A stretch of DNA of 64,000 nt from a virus. This document shows positions 2,016 to 52,370 of this stretch, piece by piece (positions within the stretch are counted from its first letter, which is position 1; the number at the start of each line of letters is the position of its first letter). The position numbers and the translations under genes are program-made. The stretch lies in IMG/VR virus record IMGVR_UViG_3300045541_000260, positions 1 through 64,000 of that record; one strand, given 5' to 3'. The notes beneath the pieces were generated by a model that saw only the letters and a program-made list of their open reading frames with translations, made no database searches and had not been told where the DNA came from.

Positions 2016-2427
2016 AGCGCAAAATTACTACATAACACCTCCAACAATCTTCTTCCCAGAAGATGGTATACGAATAACAATACTCGGAACAGACGAGTTA
2101 TGGGCAGAGCAAGTCAGTGACGATTTAGAAACTACATTTAGTACTGTACCGATGACATTTTATCATTTGGATACGGCCTCGGCTGATAATTGGCAATGGA
2201 TTTACCAAATGGCAGAAACTAGTGATTTAATTATGGTTAATGTCGGTGAAGCATCTCCAATCGAAATGAACATAGCTATGTTAAACCTTAGCCCAAAAGT
2301 TTGGTTTTATGTTGATAGAGAAATAGTTGACAAAGACACAAGAATATTGTTAAATACTATTAATGCAAATGTATTTCATGACAGTGAACAACTACATGCA
2401 ATGCTTAGAAATTACGTTGGCGAATGA
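2008..2427 (+). CDS. Hypothetical protein, Rossmann-like
   Basis: A 139-residue protein. It overlaps the upstream gene by 8 nt and its TGA overlaps the clpX start (ATGA), so it is translationally coupled to both. Alternating hydrophobic strands (ITILGT, LIMVNVG, VWFYVD) suggest a small alpha/beta nucleotide-binding-like fold, reminiscent of deoxyribosyltransferase-like phage proteins. I cannot assign a function. Confidence 0.7.
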
Positions 2428-3650
2428 CTGATAAATCCAAACCTTTAATGCGTTGCTCGTTTTGTGAAAAAAGTCAAAACGAAGTTAAAAAGCTTGTAGC
2501 CGGCAGCAGCGGCTATATCTGCGATGAATGTATCGTTCTTTGTAACGAAGTCATCAAGGACGAACAAGCTCCTGCTCGCGAAGCAGATAAGCTACCAACT
2601 CCTAGAGAAATTTTTAATCATTTAGATCAATATGTTATTGGTCAGGAAATGGCTAAAATTACTCTTAGTGTAGCAGTGTATAATCATTATAAAAGGTTAA
2701 CGAACAAGAGCGAAGTTGACATTGAAAAAAGCAACGTTCTGTTTATTGGACCGACGGGTAGTGGCAAAACATTGCTGGCCAAAACTATTGCTAAATTTTT
2801 GGATGTGCCCATTGCTATTACTGATGCTACTAGTCTGACAGAAGCGGGCTATGTGGGCGAAGATGTAGAAAATCTTATACATAAACTTTATCAAGCCGCA
2901 GACCAAAATATCGAGCGATGTGAGCAGGGAATCATTTATATTGACGAAATCGATAAAAAAGGTCGTAAAGGCGAAGGCACTAGTATTACCCGAGATGTGT
3001 CAGGCGAAGGCGTACAGCAAGCTCTGCTAAAAATTATCGAAGGCACAGAATGTCGAGTACCTCAACAGGGCGGCCGCAAACATCCTAATGGCGAAATGTT
3101 AACCATTAACACAAAAAACATTTTGTTCATATTAGGTGGCGCATTTGTTGGCCTAGAGGATGTTATTGATCGCAGAGTTAATACCAAATCTGGAATTGGC
3201 TTTGGCGCTAATCCTGTTAAAGATAAGACAAGTCTAAATCAAGTTATACACGAAGATATCATCAAGTGGGGTATCATTCCTGAGCTTGCTGGCAGAATGC
3301 CCAAGATCGCAGTATTGGAAGAGCTTACTGAAGAACAGTTAGTTCGGGCCATGACTGAACCTAAAAATAGTATTGTTAGTCAATATCAAGCGTTGTTTAA
3401 AATGGACGGTGTAGAATTAGAATTTAATTCCGAGTCATGTCGAGCAATTGCTAGAAATTGTACGGAAGCAAAACTAGGAGCTCGCGGCCTGCGAGCCGAA
3501 ATGGAAAATGCACTTTTACAAACTCAGTTTGTTTTGCCTGACTTAGCCGCAGAGAATGTGACTAAAGTTACAATAACCGAGGAAACCGTAACCCAAGGCA
3601 AAGAACCAATTTTAGTATATGGCAATAAACGAAAAAAAGCACGAGAATAG
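2424..3650 (+). CDS. clpX: ATP-dependent Clp protease ATPase subunit ClpX
   Basis: The 408-residue length is normal for ClpX. It has an N-terminal C4 zinc finger (Cys 11, 14, 33, 36), Walker A GPTGSGKT at 109-116, the GYVG substrate-gripping pore loop at about 142-145, Walker B IYIDEID, and a S-G-I-G-F-G-A stretch matching the IGF loop that docks onto ClpP. All key elements are present, so this should be an active unfoldase able to work with ClpP (the phage encodes its own at 17333). Together with the phage ClpS it would let the phage choose what the host degrades. Start and stop overlap the neighbouring genes. Confidence 0.97.
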
Positions 3651-4158
3651 AATTTTCGCTAACCGCGAAATTCGCAGTAAAGATGTTAGAGTAATTAATT
3701 CGGAGGGAGTTAATCTGGGTGTCCTTCCATACTTTCGTGCGTTATCCATGGCCGAGGATCAGGACTTGGACTTGATCATGATTAACCCTTCTGTACATCC
3801 GCCGGTGTGCAAAATAGGCGACTTGGGTAAGTATAAATATGATTTGCAAAAACGTCAGCGCGAACAGGATCGAAAGCTCAGGGAAAATAGAGTCGAAACT
3901 AAAGAAGTCCAATTGCGTCCAGGCATCGACAAGCATGATTTGGAGATTAAAATCAAGCATATCAAAGAATGGTTGGCCGATGGCGATAAAGTTAAAATTG
4001 TCATTAAATTTAGAGGCAGGGAATTAGCCAATACAGAATCGGCTACTGTACTAATTGATAATATATTAAGTTCTGTTCCCTCTGCCCGTTTAGAAGGTAA
4101 TAGTGAATTGCAAGGTAATAGACTTACCGCAACGTTATTTCAAGGTAAACAAAAATGA
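3619..4158 (+). CDS. infC: Translation initiation factor IF-3
   Basis: A 179-residue protein with the two-domain IF-3 layout: an N-terminal domain opening with [12 protein letters not shown], a basic helical linker (K-R-Q-R-E-Q-D-R-K), and a C-terminal domain with V-Q-L-R-P-G-I-D-x-H-D and [11 protein letters not shown], the usual 30S-binding motifs. IF-3 checks start-codon and initiator-tRNA pairing and prevents subunit joining. The start at 3619 lies 32 nt inside clpX in another frame. rpsU follows with a 4-nt overlap, giving a phage translation-initiation operon. Confidence 0.96.
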
Positions 4159-5287: not shown

Positions 5288-5301
5288 ATCGTAGCAAAGT
5301 T

Positions 5302-5320
5302 GGGGAGCAAACTGCTCCCC
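5302..5320 (+). other. Strong hairpin between hsp20 and clpS
   Basis: GGGGAGCA (5302-5309) pairs perfectly with TGCTCCCC (5313-5320) over a 3-nt loop. No T-run follows, so it may be an mRNA 3-prime stabiliser or a weak terminator. Confidence 0.5.
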
Positions 5321-5323
5321 ACA

Positions 5324-5331
5324 GATAAATA
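5324..5331 (+). promoter_or_regulatory. Late promoter box (GATAAATA) for clpS
   Basis: GATAAATA 16 nt before the clpS ATG at 5348, with TAAGG in between as the ribosome site. Confidence 0.45.
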
Positions 5332-5347
5332 CACGGTAAGGATTGAA

Positions 5348-5656
5348 ATGACACTAATGGCCACAGAAACAAGTCAAACTACCAAGCGAGATGTTGTTAT
5401 TAAAAAGCCCAGCATGTACAAAGTGGTGCTGAATAATGACGACGTTACGCCAGTTGATTTTGTTAGAGATTTACTAAAGGCTGTCTTCCATTACGACGAG
5501 CAGCGAGCCGTGGATTTGACTTTGGAAATCCATGAGCAAGGCCGCGGCATTGCCGGCGTTTATACATTTGAAGTCGCCGAACAAAAGCACAACGAAGCAA
5601 CATATATTGCTAGAACAAATGGGCACCCGCTCAATATTAATCTAGAATCTGAATAA
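5348..5656 (+). CDS. clpS: ClpS adaptor protein
   Basis: About 102 residues from ATG 5348, which has TAAGG just upstream; ATG 5357 is an alternative. The core matches ClpS: Y-K-V-V-L-N-N-D-D-V-T-P-V-D-F-V, an acidic helix, G-x-G-I-A-G-V-Y-T-F-E-V-A-E. In bacteria ClpS delivers N-degron proteins to ClpAP. Here the phage supplies ClpX and ClpP but no ClpA in this window, so it may feed host ClpAP or redirect N-end-rule substrates. Confidence 0.93.
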   Translation: MTLMATETSQTTKRDVVIKKPSMYKVVLNNDDVTPVDFVRDLLKAVFHYDEQRAVDLTLEIHEQGRGIAGVYTFEVAEQKHNEATYIARTNGHPLNINLESE

Positions 5657-17171: not shown

Positions 17172-17336
17172 ATGCTAAAATTTTTCTTCCAACGCAAAAA
17201 AATCAACACTGTTGATATGCCACATAACGAACAGCCTGACCCTTATTTAGAAAAACTTACACAAGAATTGCTCTTGCAAAAAAAGCAAGAATCAGTTAAA
17301 CTTACACAACAACAAAAGGAAAAGGAAGTTAAATGA
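17172..17336 (+). CDS. Small charged protein ahead of clpP, 54 aa
   Basis: ATG 17172, stop overlapping the clpP ATG (ATGA). Gln/Lys/Glu-rich helical tail. Translationally coupled to clpP; unknown. Confidence 0.6.
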
Positions 17337-28160: not shown

Positions 28161-28366
28161 CAGCAATTGTTGTTAACGTTGACGGACAAAATGTTGATCT
28201 AGCACTAGACTGGGCTAAAGAGCATTGTTCGAGTTATATCACTAACACTGGAAAGATTGAAGGTGCGTGGAGTGATGACACGGGATACCGATCAGCCAGG
28301 ATTGTGTATGAATTTCATTTTTACGATGAGCACGATGCTGCCATGTTTGCTTTGAAGTGGTCATGA
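28157..28366 (+). CDS. K-W-S family protein, 69 aa
   Basis: Paralogue of the preceding gene over the first 40 residues, with C-terminus F-H-F-Y-D-E-H-D-A-A-M-F-A-L-K-W-S. The junction TGGTCATGA starts tilS. Confidence 0.7.
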   Translation: MTAIVVNVDGQNVDLALDWAKEHCSSYITNTGKIEGAWSDDTGYRSARIVYEFHFYDEHDAAMFALKWS

Positions 28367-28977
28367 TTAAACTATTAGGTGATCTGCCCGAACAACCTAC
28401 GATTGCCCTTAGCGGCGGCGTGGATAGTATGGCTGTGGCTGATTTTATCGCAAGATCCAGAAGTGTGCGGGCAGCGTTTTTCCACCACGGAACTCCTGCT
28501 AGCCATAAAGGGTTTGAACTGGTCTCCGCATACTGTCAAAAGCGTGGATGGCCATTAGCACTAGGTCGTATTAGCAGTCCAAAAGGTAAAGTTGAGAGTC
28601 CCGAAGAGTTTTGGCGTAATCAGCGTTATTACTGGTTGGATACATTAGGTGCAGGTGTTATCACTGCACATCATCTTGACGACTGTGTAGAAACTTACTT
28701 GTGGTCAATGATGCATGGTACAGCCAAGACTATTCCTTATCGTCGCAATAAAGTAATTCGTCCGTTTCTTCTTACTCCTAAAAGTGAACTAGTAGATTGG
28801 GCCTCAAGAAACAATGTTCCTTGGGTAGAGGATGACAGCAATAAAGATTTAAGTTACACTAGAAACTATGTCAGACACGAACTCGTGCCTAAGGCGTTGC
28901 ATGTGAATCCTGGCTTGCACAAGGTAGTGGCAAGAAAAGTGGAAGAATACAACGACAGCATTGAAATCAATATTTGA
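28363..28977 (+). CDS. tilS: tRNA(Ile)-lysidine synthase, short form
   Basis: 204 residues: only the N-terminal catalytic domain of TilS. PP-loop S-G-G-V-D-S-M at about 19-25, H-H-L-D-D-C-V-E-T at about 108, and R-N-Y-V-R-H-E-L-V-P matching the R-N-x-(L/V)-R-H motif. TilS adds lysine to C34 of tRNA-Ile(CAU) so it reads AUA. Two non-initiator CAU tRNAs lie at 30010 and 35504, obvious candidate substrates. Bacterial TilS is about twice as long, but short forms exist. Confidence 0.88.
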   Translation: MIKLLGDLPEQPTIALSGGVDSMAVADFIARSRSVRAAFFHHGTPASHKGFELVSAYCQKRGWPLALGRISSPKGKVESPEEFWRNQRYYWLDTLGAGVITAHHLDDCVETYLWSMMHGTAKTIPYRRNKVIRPFLLTPKSELVDWASRNNVPWVEDDSNKDLSYTRNYVRHELVPKALHVNPGLHKVVARKVEEYNDSIEINI

Positions 28978-30009: not shown

Positions 30010-30086
30010 GCCTCTGTAGCTCAATTGGTCAGAGCAGCGGACTCATAATCCGTTGGTTAGGGGTTCGAGTCCCTTCGGAGGCACCA
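30010..30086 (+). tRNA. tRNA with CAT anticodon (Ile2 or elongator Met)
   Basis: Complete tRNA, acceptor GCCTCTG pairing with the 3-prime strand, anticodon loop CTCATAA, ACCA encoded. With phage TilS present it may be tRNA-Ile2 (lysidine at C34); the sequence alone cannot separate Ile2 from Met. Confidence 0.9.
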
Positions 30087-35503: not shown

Positions 35504-35578
35504 GGTGATGTAGCACAGCGGTAGTGCAACGCCTTCATACGGCGTGGGTCGTAAGTTCGAATCTTACCATCACCACCA
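35504..35578 (+). tRNA. tRNA with CAT anticodon (Met or Ile2)
   Basis: GGTGATG/CATCACC acceptor, anticodon stem ACGCC/GGCGT, loop TTCATAC, ACCA. It lacks the C1-A72 initiator feature. Confidence 0.9.
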
Positions 35579-44813: not shown

Positions 44814-46022
44814 ATGGAAAAAAAGAAAATTGCAGTTGTTGGCCGTGGCACTGCCGGTGTTATGGCTATGGCAGACGTAGTTAATAGATTCGGCACTAGT
44901 GCTGAATTAGAATGGCATTTTGACAGCAACATAAAACCTCAGGCAGTAGGAGAAGGCAGCACATTGTTGGTGGCCAAATCATTATTTAAAAATCTAGGTT
45001 TTTCGCATCATGATCTAGATCACATCGACGGAACTTTTAAACACGGTATTAGAAAAATGAATTGGTCGCCGGATAATCTGGACTTTTTCCATGAATTTCC
45101 TGCCCCAAACGTTTCGTATCATTTTAATGCTGTTGCATTACAAAATTATGTTTATGGTTTATTAAAAGATAAAGTAAAAGTTTTTGATCATAATATCACT
45201 TATGATCAAATTGATGCTAGTTATGTCATTGATTGTTCTGGAAAGCCCAATGACTGGAGCTTGTTTGATGAACCTCAATATATACCAGTTAATGCTGCTT
45301 ATGTAACACAGTGCTATTGGGATCTGCCAAGATTTTTTCATACACTGACTATTGCACGGCCATACGGCTGGGTGTTTGGCATCCCACTTAAAAATCGATG
45401 CAGTATTGGCTATATGTTCAACGATAATATTACATCAGTAGAGGAAGTAAAAGAAGATGTCAAACATGTGTTTGAACAATTTAATCTAACACCCAGCACT
45501 ACAACTAATGAACTGCATTTTAAGAATTATGCTCGAAAAACTAATTTTCTTAAGGGTGTAGCATTTAACGGCAATGCCAGTTTCTTTTTAGAACCCATAG
45601 AAGCATCGACTTTAACTGGAGTAGAGTATATTAATGATTGGGCCTGTTCATTGATAAAAAATCCAATAGAAATTCATAAATTCAATGGTATGTATAAAAA
45701 GAGAAATGAGAACATCGAAAGAATGATTATGTTACATTATTTTGCTGGATCAATTTTTAAAACTGATTTCTGGGATTTTGCTTACGAACGAGCACGCCGA
45801 TGTTTAGAAATTGCAGTTAATGACGATCCGAATTGGCAATTAATCTATGAAGTTAGTAAAACATCTGATCCAAAGGATCCAGCAAAATACATGCCACTGT
45901 TAATGGAAAAAAAATGGCCAGGCCTATTATTCGAAGATTGGACAGATTGGAGTTATCATGAAAATCTTTCTCATCGAGGCATGAATCTTTACGATAAGAT
46001 TGACGCTTTAAAAAGAAAATAA
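44814..46022 (+). CDS. Flavin-dependent (tryptophan-type) halogenase 1
   Basis: 402 residues. FAD site G-R-G-T-A-G at about 10-15; G-E-G-S-T; D-G-T-F-K-H-G-I carrying the Lys that aligns with the catalytic Lys; G-W-V-F-G-I-P-L replacing the usual W-x-W-x-I-P (second Trp is Phe); F-F-L-E-P-I-E-A-S-T. Cyanophage relatives are known as viral halogenases. Tandem paralogue follows after 2 nt. Needs reduced FAD; no flavin reductase seen. Confidence 0.87.
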   Translation: MEKKKIAVVGRGTAGVMAMADVVNRFGTSAELEWHFDSNIKPQAVGEGSTLLVAKSLFKNLGFSHHDLDHIDGTFKHGIRKMNWSPDNLDFFHEFPAPNVSYHFNAVALQNYVYGLLKDKVKVFDHNITYDQIDASYVIDCSGKPNDWSLFDEPQYIPVNAAYVTQCYWDLPRFFHTLTIARPYGWVFGIPLKNRCSIGYMFNDNITSVEEVKEDVKHVFEQFNLTPSTTTNELHFKNYARKTNFLKGVAFNGNASFFLEPIEASTLTGVEYINDWACSLIKNPIEIHKFNGMYKKRNENIERMIMLHYFAGSIFKTDFWDFAYERARRCLEIAVNDDPNWQLIYEVSKTSDPKDPAKYMPLLMEKKWPGLLFEDWTDWSYHENLSHRGMNLYDKIDALKRK

Positions 46023-49187: not shown

Positions 49188-50837
49188 ATGAAATTTTTAA
49201 TCGACTTCAAAGATAATAGTTCCGATGCGGACATTTCTGCTTACTTGCAAAGCTTTTCGGCAACTGTTGAAAAAACTTTCAACAAGTTTACCAAGACTTA
49301 TTTAATTGAGTCACCGGTGACTCCACCAACTTCTTCAATTGTTGATATTGTTATCAATGACGATACCGAAACAGTAAGCCTGCTAAACACTACAGTATAT
49401 CTGGATCAAAATTTCGGAAGTCTTGTAACAAATGGCACCATCCCTCTAATTAATTTAGATACCAGTGACGAAAACAATTGGTGGAAATTATATAGTTTTT
49501 TACGACCAGAGTTAGATGTTGCAACATATTCTTTAAATCGTCGTGGCAACGGCAACATTGTTTATGTATTGGACAGTGGTTGTAACGTTAACCATGCAGA
49601 ATTTAATGGATCTACAGTTACAAACTTGTGGAGCTTTAATAACGACTTCACTGATACAAACGGCCATGGCACTGCTATTTCGGCAGTGATTGCAGGTCAA
49701 ACTTGCGGTATGACCGATGCTGCTGTAAAGAATGTGAAAATTTTCCACGATGGTGTAAGTACAAAGCAAAGTGATTTAGTATCTGCACTAGATGTTATCT
49801 ATAATGATTTTATTAACACTACCATTCCTGGTTATTTTATTGTAAATGCCAGCTGGGCAATTCCTAAAAATACTTTCATCGAAAGTAAGATTCGTGCAAT
49901 GATAGATGTTGGTATTATTTTCGTAGCAGCAGCAGGAAACAACGGTGTCCCAATCGAAAATGTTACTCCGGCATCTATGCTTGATGTATTAACTGTTGGA
50001 AGTTATAACAAGGATCTGATGCCTAGTAATTTTAGTAATTATTCCGGTGGCAGCGATATATCTTATACTACTGGAGAAACAAATTACGGTGCATTAGACG
50101 GTTGGGCGCCAGGAGAAGAAATAAGGATTCCTACATTAAACGGAGCATATGGATTAGCAGCCGGAACCAGTATGTCTGCAGCAATTCAATCGGCTGCACT
50201 AGCTTATAATCTTTCTCACTCTAACTTTCCGAAAACATACGACAGAACTATATATGGATTTGCCAAAGAACATTCGTTCCTCAGATCTGATATGTTAGAT
50301 TTAAGCGATCCAAAATATGTCGACTCAGTAAACAAATTAACCACATTTGTTGACAATCTGTCTCAGAAGGTCATTAAAGATACCATACCAAAGGATTATA
50401 GATTGACTCCTGGGTTTCTATTAAACTTAATGGAGTTTGCTAATCCAAAACTTATTGAAAGAGTAGAATTCTTACAAAGCTTACCATATGGTATTGAATT
50501 ACTTCCTCAGGGTGAGTTTTCCGGTCAAGTGCCATCAAATTTAAATCAAAGATATGTTCAACATATCATTCCAACTCGAGCAATTTATCGAGACGGAACA
50601 ATAGATGAATTTGATTTAACTTTCCATATCATGGCAGCTGATTGGAATAGCGAAGTCGACTCTACTGGCGACCCTGATTTAGATATTAAACTACAATTCA
50701 CTTATTATTGTTTCCAGCACGGTGACTGTATTTACAATGAGCATACTTGTATCGCTAACTGCGGTTCTGCCTGGTGTAACCAAGGTAGCCAATATTGTCC
50801 AAAAGGTGCATTTGGTTGCTTCTGTGATGGATTCTAA
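49188..50837 (+). CDS. Subtilisin-like serine protease (S8) with Cys-rich tail
   Basis: 549 residues. Triad motifs: V-L-D-S-G (Asp, about 126), N-G-H-G-T-A (His, about 160), G-T-S-M-S-A-A (Ser, about 330); oxyanion A-A-A-G-N-N-G. No signal peptide. An N-terminal stretch of about 100 residues may be a propeptide. The last 45 residues hold ten Cys in a knot-like pattern. May process virion or host proteins. Confidence 0.92.
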   Translation: MKFLIDFKDNSSDADISAYLQSFSATVEKTFNKFTKTYLIESPVTPPTSSIVDIVINDDTETVSLLNTTVYLDQNFGSLVTNGTIPLINLDTSDENNWWKLYSFLRPELDVATYSLNRRGNGNIVYVLDSGCNVNHAEFNGSTVTNLWSFNNDFTDTNGHGTAISAVIAGQTCGMTDAAVKNVKIFHDGVSTKQSDLVSALDVIYNDFINTTIPGYFIVNASWAIPKNTFIESKIRAMIDVGIIFVAAAGNNGVPIENVTPASMLDVLTVGSYNKDLMPSNFSNYSGGSDISYTTGETNYGALDGWAPGEEIRIPTLNGAYGLAAGTSMSAAIQSAALAYNLSHSNFPKTYDRTIYGFAKEHSFLRSDMLDLSDPKYVDSVNKLTTFVDNLSQKVIKDTIPKDYRLTPGFLLNLMEFANPKLIERVEFLQSLPYGIELLPQGEFSGQVPSNLNQRYVQHIIPTRAIYRDGTIDEFDLTFHIMAADWNSEVDSTGDPDLDIKLQFTYYCFQHGDCIYNEHTCIANCGSAWCNQGSQYCPKGAFGCFCDGF

Positions 50838-52291: not shown

Positions 52292-52370
52292 CGCGGAGTA
52301 GAGGAGCCCAGTCGTCCTCGCCAGTCTCATAAGCTGGAGATCGCAGGTGCGAATCCTGCCTCCGCAACCA
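52292..52370 (+). tRNA. Initiator-like tRNA-fMet (CAT)
   Basis: The acceptor starts CGCGGAG opposite CTCCGCA, leaving C1 opposite A72, the initiator hallmark. A11-U24 in the D-stem matches initiators. Anticodon loop CTCATAA, AACCA. The three G-C pairs of the usual anticodon stem are absent (CCAGT/GCTGG), and the T-loop is TGCGAAT. Confidence 0.85.

Follow-up and report, generated by a model that had tools for sequence, protein, structure and literature searches.

Bacterial initiator tRNA-fMet is marked for formylation by an unpaired C1/A72, the pairs G2-C71, C3-G70 and G4-C69, and A73 (PMC9976931), and A11-U24 is a secondary initiator determinant (PMC4611024). That phages can encode initiator tRNAs is already known, and many tRNA-rich phages do so. 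Examples, located mostly within tRNA arrays, occur in phi92, phAPEC8, Bas62, pf16, CcrPW and the KVP40-like Vibrio phages, and the records of CcrPW and Bas62 annotate a tRNA-fMet. The initiators of this group retain G18 and T55 and belong to phages without IF-3. A wastewater huge phage, 1-SewaA, has been described with a full tRNA set that includes fMet tRNAs, the stem being undescribed in the source (PMC10747093). Phage IF-3 is also known (PMC7162821; PMC7824862), and the jumbo phages Atu_ph07 and Phosso contain a ClpX-IF-3 gene pair together with an initiator-type tRNA, as does the phage examined here.

It has been inferred from one host setting that phages generally avoid encoding tRNA-fMet (PMC10264068). 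BLAST searches returned 356 phage records with the tRNA described below as query and 411 with E. coli tRNA-fMet, in overlapping lists that include some partial or elongator matches, and these matches qualify that inference.

Identity and architecture of the tRNA

The window analysed was a stretch of 64,000 nucleotides (IMG/VR record IMGVR_UViG_3300045541_000260, positions 1 to 64,000), taken from a virus record of 69,928 bases that is classified as a linear fragment. ARAGORN identified a tRNA-Met(CAU) of 79 nt, with the CCA encoded, at exactly 52292-52370. The sequence reached the gathering score of the Rfam tRNA family RF00005, weakly (35.6 bits, E 9.3e-4), and folded as a cloverleaf with an energy of -29.8 kcal/mol and a z of -2.5. 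In standard numbering the 5' half reads CGCGGAG-TA-GAGG-AGCCCAGTCGT-CCTC-G-CCAGT-CTCATAA-GCTGG, and the 3' half after the anticodon stem reads AGATC-GCAGG-TGCGAAT-CCTGC-CTCCGCA-A-CCA. The coordinates of these and the other features are given in Table 1.

Table 1. Features of the putative initiator tRNA and of related genes, in window coordinates
Feature	Position	Strand	Evidence
Initiator-type tRNA (predicted), CAU anticodon, 79 nt, CCA encoded	52292..52370	+	ARAGORN; Rfam RF00005; fold
5' acceptor strand CGCGGAG: C1 unpaired, then G2, C3, G4 (formylation determinants)	52292..52298	+	sequence; PMC9976931
D arm GAGG / 11-nt loop AGCCCAGTCGT / CCTC; A11-U24; A18 (52310) replaces G18	52301..52319	+	sequence
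Anticodon arm CCAGT-CTCATAA-GCTGG: A29-U41, G30-C40, U31 (52325)·G39 (52333)	52321..52337	+	sequence, comparison set
T loop TGCGAAT: G55 (52349) replaces T55, covaries with A18	52348..52354	+	sequence set, tree
3' acceptor strand CTCCGCA with A72, then A73	52360..52367	+	sequence
Translation initiation factor IF-3 (infC), 179 aa, directly after ClpX	3619..4158	+	Pfam, NCBIfam, PHROGs; PDB alignment
Second CAU tRNA, probably tRNA-Ile2 from its E. coli-like sequence	30010..30086	+	ARAGORN, sequence
Third CAU tRNA, probably elongator tRNA-Met	35504..35578	+	ARAGORN, sequence
TilS tRNA(Ile) lysidine synthetase	28357..28977	+	TIGR02432 112 bits, cut-off 93.6

All of the published formylation determinants are present, with C1/A72 unpaired, the pairs G2-C71, C3-G70 and G4-C69, and A73. 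A purine at position 11 faces a pyrimidine at 24 (A11-U24) and the anticodon is CAU; together with G30-C40 and R29-Y41, the latter being A29-U41 in many Pseudomonadota, these are shared with bacterial initiators. The original prediction of an initiator-type tRNA with C1 opposite A72 and with A11-U24 was supported by these features and, judged from its sequence, this is a real tRNA with every bacterial initiator marker that can be checked. It differs from bacterial tRNA-fMet in its U31·G39 pair, 11-nt D loop, A18 and G55. The 11-nt D loop is common to the initiators of phi92 and pf16 and several complete-phage initiators carry G39, although the phi92 group differs in having U32, U38 and other 1/72 mismatches.

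The anticodon stem consists of C27-G43, C28-G42, A29-U41, G30-C40 and U31·G39. It had been proposed that the stem lacks three G-C pairs normally inspected by IF-3. The first part of this holds for 31-39, which is odd, but G30-C40 is kept and A29-U41 is a common Pseudomonadota form, pair 29-41 of the cellular Pseudomonadota initiators being either G-C or A-U. The strict triplet of G-C pairs at 29-41, 30-40 and 31-39, which this tRNA lacks, is an unreliable initiator test because cellular initiators often have A-U at 29-41. As to the second part, IF-3 makes no inspection of the stem itself; the contacts come from 16S rRNA, of which A1339 touches pair 30-40 and G1338 touches pair 29-41 of the initiator (PMC11497404). 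Both contacted pairs have the expected form (G30-C40 and R29-Y41) and 31-39 is not gripped by the ribosome, so that only 31-39 departs from cellular usage. On its remaining features the tRNA would be classed as a variant initiator and not as a standard member of tRNA-fMet. A natural C30-G40 pair was observed in the initiator tRNAs of four other loci (L060, L077, L179, L181). This is the M1 change, which is reported to lower initiation and relax start-codon choice in E. coli (PMC11497404), and these initiators appear to be better candidates for altered initiation than the tRNA of the window.

Nearly all tRNAs have G18 and T55. Their replacement here by A18 and G55 was overlooked in the original prediction. 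Among the unique initiators of the comparison set described below, A18 occurs with G55 in 13 of 13 and G18 with T55 in 90 of 90, the lone remaining row (L129) being misaligned because of an extra base. The same direction is seen in three independent pairs on supported branches of the tree, a number too small for a significance test. The covariation indicates that the odd loops are maintained and not decayed, and argues that A18-G55 keeps the contact between the D loop and the T loop and that the tRNA is kept functional. The swap would also abolish the usual substrate for pseudouridine-55. No description of the covariation was found in the literature searched, most subscription papers lying outside its scope. 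The combination of U31·G39, A18 and G55 recurs in two 79-nt initiators from IMG/VR viral contigs (L142 and L145), which are 93% identical to the window tRNA over 72 columns; they differ in having G29-C41, and their contigs, of 6-8 kb, are too short to judge IF-3.

Distribution of the U31·G39 pair

A search of 2.9 million viral contigs with the U31·G39 initiator pattern gave 28 matching contigs, while 84,980 cellular species genomes gave 2 matches. One of the two is a prophage, with 2,678 bases identical to a viral locus (L053) and phage genes. The other lies on a contig of Candidatus Portnoybacteria that also has a recombinase gene (L148, 2792-2865), combines U31·G39 with A18/G55 and is the sole possible cellular case. 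As a control, a general initiator pattern matched 63 of 150 Pseudomonadota genomes, with 0 in the reverse control, and among the matches listed all had G30-C40 and G31-C39 except the prophage sequence. G30-C40 was retained in every U31·G39 relative found.

The comparison set contained 104 unique well-parsed initiators drawn from viral contigs, together with that of the window and those of a small number of retrieved phage and genome loci. Those with a D stem base 13 other than C were termed phage-type (52 unique), the remaining 52 having C13. Pair 31-39 of the phage-type initiators is G-C in 32, U·G in 16, C-G in 2, U-A in 1 and G·U in 1, and that of the C13 initiators is G-C in 49. The pair is therefore altered in 20 of the 52 unique phage-type initiators, 18 of these 20 having G39, and C39 is kept in the other 32. 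Pairs 29-41 and 30-40 are mostly conserved across the set and 31-39 is variable. A tree of the initiators was built omitting columns 31, 39, 18 and 55. Its resolution was weak, as 72 columns would lead one to expect, and it required at least 4 changes for G39 on supported branches, with 13 on the best tree.

The U31·G39 pair recurs as a signature of phages and is almost confined to them. Phage initiators have been altered repeatedly at one stem pair with the two gripped pairs mostly kept. A description of the recurrent G39 was not found in the literature searchable here.

Phage IF-3 and the altered stem

The original prediction noted that the phage makes its own IF-3 and suggested a matched, altered initiation by the two components. 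The IF-3 gene was confirmed, its product containing IF3_N and IF3_C domains and scoring 157 bits against the NCBIfam infC cut-off of 60. The protein is intact and typical, and has arginine at the residue aligned with R131 of E. coli. The substitution R131P in IF-3 relaxes initiator selection, and Mycoplasma provides a precedent for coevolution of initiator and IF-3. An AUU start for the phage IF-3 (the ATT after the ClpX stop) was considered and rejected, as relatives share the ATG but not the ATT. In a mechanical set of 85 ORFs of at least 100 aa, 57 had ATG starts with nothing odd among the start codons, and 54 had an early start preceded by a Shine-Dalgarno-like motif.

Pfam IF3_C was detected in 0 of the 28 U31·G39 viral records, many of which are fragments, although the longest reaches 290 kb. 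Among 20 other initiator-bearing viral records it was detected in 1; that record (L019) has G31-C39. IF-3 was likewise absent from all 15 of the complete phages examined that carry an initiator-type tRNA (phi92, nt-1, pf16, CcrPW, Nappy, Aeh1, JIPh_Kp127, phAPEC8, RHph_TM3_3_3, phiM12, JohannJBalmer, phi-ST2, Lak-B4, S-CRM01 and Wakanda). Pair 31-39 is altered in 11 of these 15, with G39 in all 11, a fraction biased by the choice of the phages for their similarity to the window tRNA or to E. coli tRNA-fMet. Sampling bias notwithstanding, the conclusion stands that IF-3 is dispensable for an altered 31-39.

The proposed survey of infC phages for this tRNA was carried out on 15 IF-3-bearing records beyond the window, comprising 14 from a phage collection and the L019 record. 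Initiators were present in 8 of the 15. Pair 31-39 is altered in Phosso (U-A), Atu_ph07 (C-G) and LR756500 (C-G), and is G31-C39 in the L019 record, SNUABM_44, LR756511, LR756501 and LR756504. The tRNA loops of Atu_ph07 and Phosso are both normal, unlike those of the window tRNA. No initiator was seen in the IF-3 records of 121Q, Munch, XaC1, Hallingskeid, RaK2, Vibrio 2.275.O and an Acinetobacter contig. Counting the window (U·G), nine IF-3 phages have an initiator: pair 31-39 is altered in 4 of the 9 and is G31-C39 in the other 5.

A phage-specific initiation in which the altered stem depends on phage IF-3 or is favoured by it would be consistent with the presence of both genes on one record, with the altered pairs of the complete jumbo phages Phosso and Atu_ph07 and with the Mycoplasma precedent. 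The surveys argue against it, as IF-3 is missing from both the U31·G39 contigs and the complete initiator-bearing phages and IF-3 phages have G31-C39 about as often as an altered pair, so that the altered stem does not follow IF-3 and there is no association in the direction required of a matched pair. In addition R131 is conserved, the 16S rRNA contacts fall on normal pairs, and IF-3 travels with Clp genes, in the order ClpX-IF-3 in the window phage, Phosso and Atu_ph07 and IF-3-ClpS in 121Q, Munch and XaC1. A matched pair is accordingly unsupported and regarded as highly improbable. The IF-3/Clp neighbourhood is conserved between the window (2424-4158 and 5300-5656) and jumbo-phage loci L188, L189, L190, L195 and L208. 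The window phage also encodes ClpP, at 17333, and in Vibrio phage 2.275.O (L211) a ribosomal protein S21 gene lies directly 3' of IF-3.

Possible function and neighbouring genes

The sequence features suggest that the tRNA probably acts as a working initiator for the host pathway when host tRNA is short, with nuclease escape as the likeliest origin of G39. Host MetRS would charge the tRNA at its CAU anticodon, host formyltransferase would formylate it because C1/A72 is unpaired, and host IF2 would deliver it to the P-site, where the 30S head would grip the retained G30-C40 and A29-U41. The phage initiator could in this way sustain initiation when host initiator tRNA is scarce or destroyed. As the 30S head does not grip 31-39, this pair would be free to change.

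The A38|C39 bond of initiator tRNA is where the VapC toxins of Shigella and Salmonella cleave (PMC4105405), and the alteration of phage tRNAs at nuclease sites is an established hypothesis (PMC10264068). The change from C39 to G39 lies at this cleavage site, replacing the base 3' of the cut bond, and may protect the tRNA; its position makes escape from VapC-like nucleases the most likely reason for it. In the initiators of phi92, phAPEC8 and Bas62 both bases flanking the cut are changed, to T38 and G39. Escape would not be universal, as 32 of the 52 unique phage-type initiators retain C39. Taken alone, the step from G39 to nuclease escape is tentative, and it is no more than possible that phage initiators repeatedly gained G39, with the ribosome-gripped pairs kept, in order to evade such nucleases. 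If true, phages would have a nuclease-proof route of initiation, contradicting the view that they avoid tRNA-fMet. The natural phage variation separates gripped from ungripped positions and so offers a direct test of nuclease escape.

The main rival to escape is a purposeless drift of 31-39 in phage initiators, the pair being untouched by the 30S head. This agrees with the variation of 31-39 beside the mostly conserved 29-41 and 30-40 and with a structure that has contacts only at the latter two pairs (PMC11497404), and relaxed constraint could explain part of the change. Drift from G-C should however first give G·U or A-U, yet G39, in a U·G or C-G pair, is found in 18 of the 20 altered unique phage-type sequences, G·U in one and A-U in none; altered 31-39 is also almost absent from cellular initiators. 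The near-absence of G·U and the absence of A-U weaken drift, which we consider plausible at somewhat less than an even chance. Use as a Met elongator or an initiator-derived decoy could be suggested by phage relatives that have lost the C1/A72 mismatch, with U1-A72 in nt-1, Aeh1 and CcrPW, but the window tRNA retains the unpaired C1/A72 and the other formylation determinants and the phage already has two other CAU tRNAs, making such a role highly improbable. A decaying pseudogene, or a host tRNA acquired at an integration site, would fit the low Rfam score and the many other viral-contig matches that lie at contig ends in the manner of attachment sites. The tRNA is, however, internal with more tRNA genes downstream, all of its stems pair, the CCA is encoded, A18 and G55 covary and its closest relatives are phage tRNAs, so that this origin is extremely unlikely. 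Some initiator-derived phage tRNAs (L155, L196, L198, L202) have U1 facing A72, and in some cases U73, and are possibly drifting toward elongator use or weaker formylation.

The 27 tRNA genes that ARAGORN detected in the window make up a full phage set in which each of the 20 amino acids is represented. Of the three distinct CAU tRNAs, one is likely to be Ile2, another elongator Met and the third the initiator. The gene for TilS, which would convert the Ile2 CAU tRNA, is located just upstream of the Ile2-like gene, so that the phage may be self-sufficient in decoding AUA. Several 2OG-Fe oxygenase-like genes lie among the tRNA genes (29676-55187), and the same region contains two tandem tryptophan-halogenase-like genes at 44814 and 46025 and a subtilisin-like protease at 49188.
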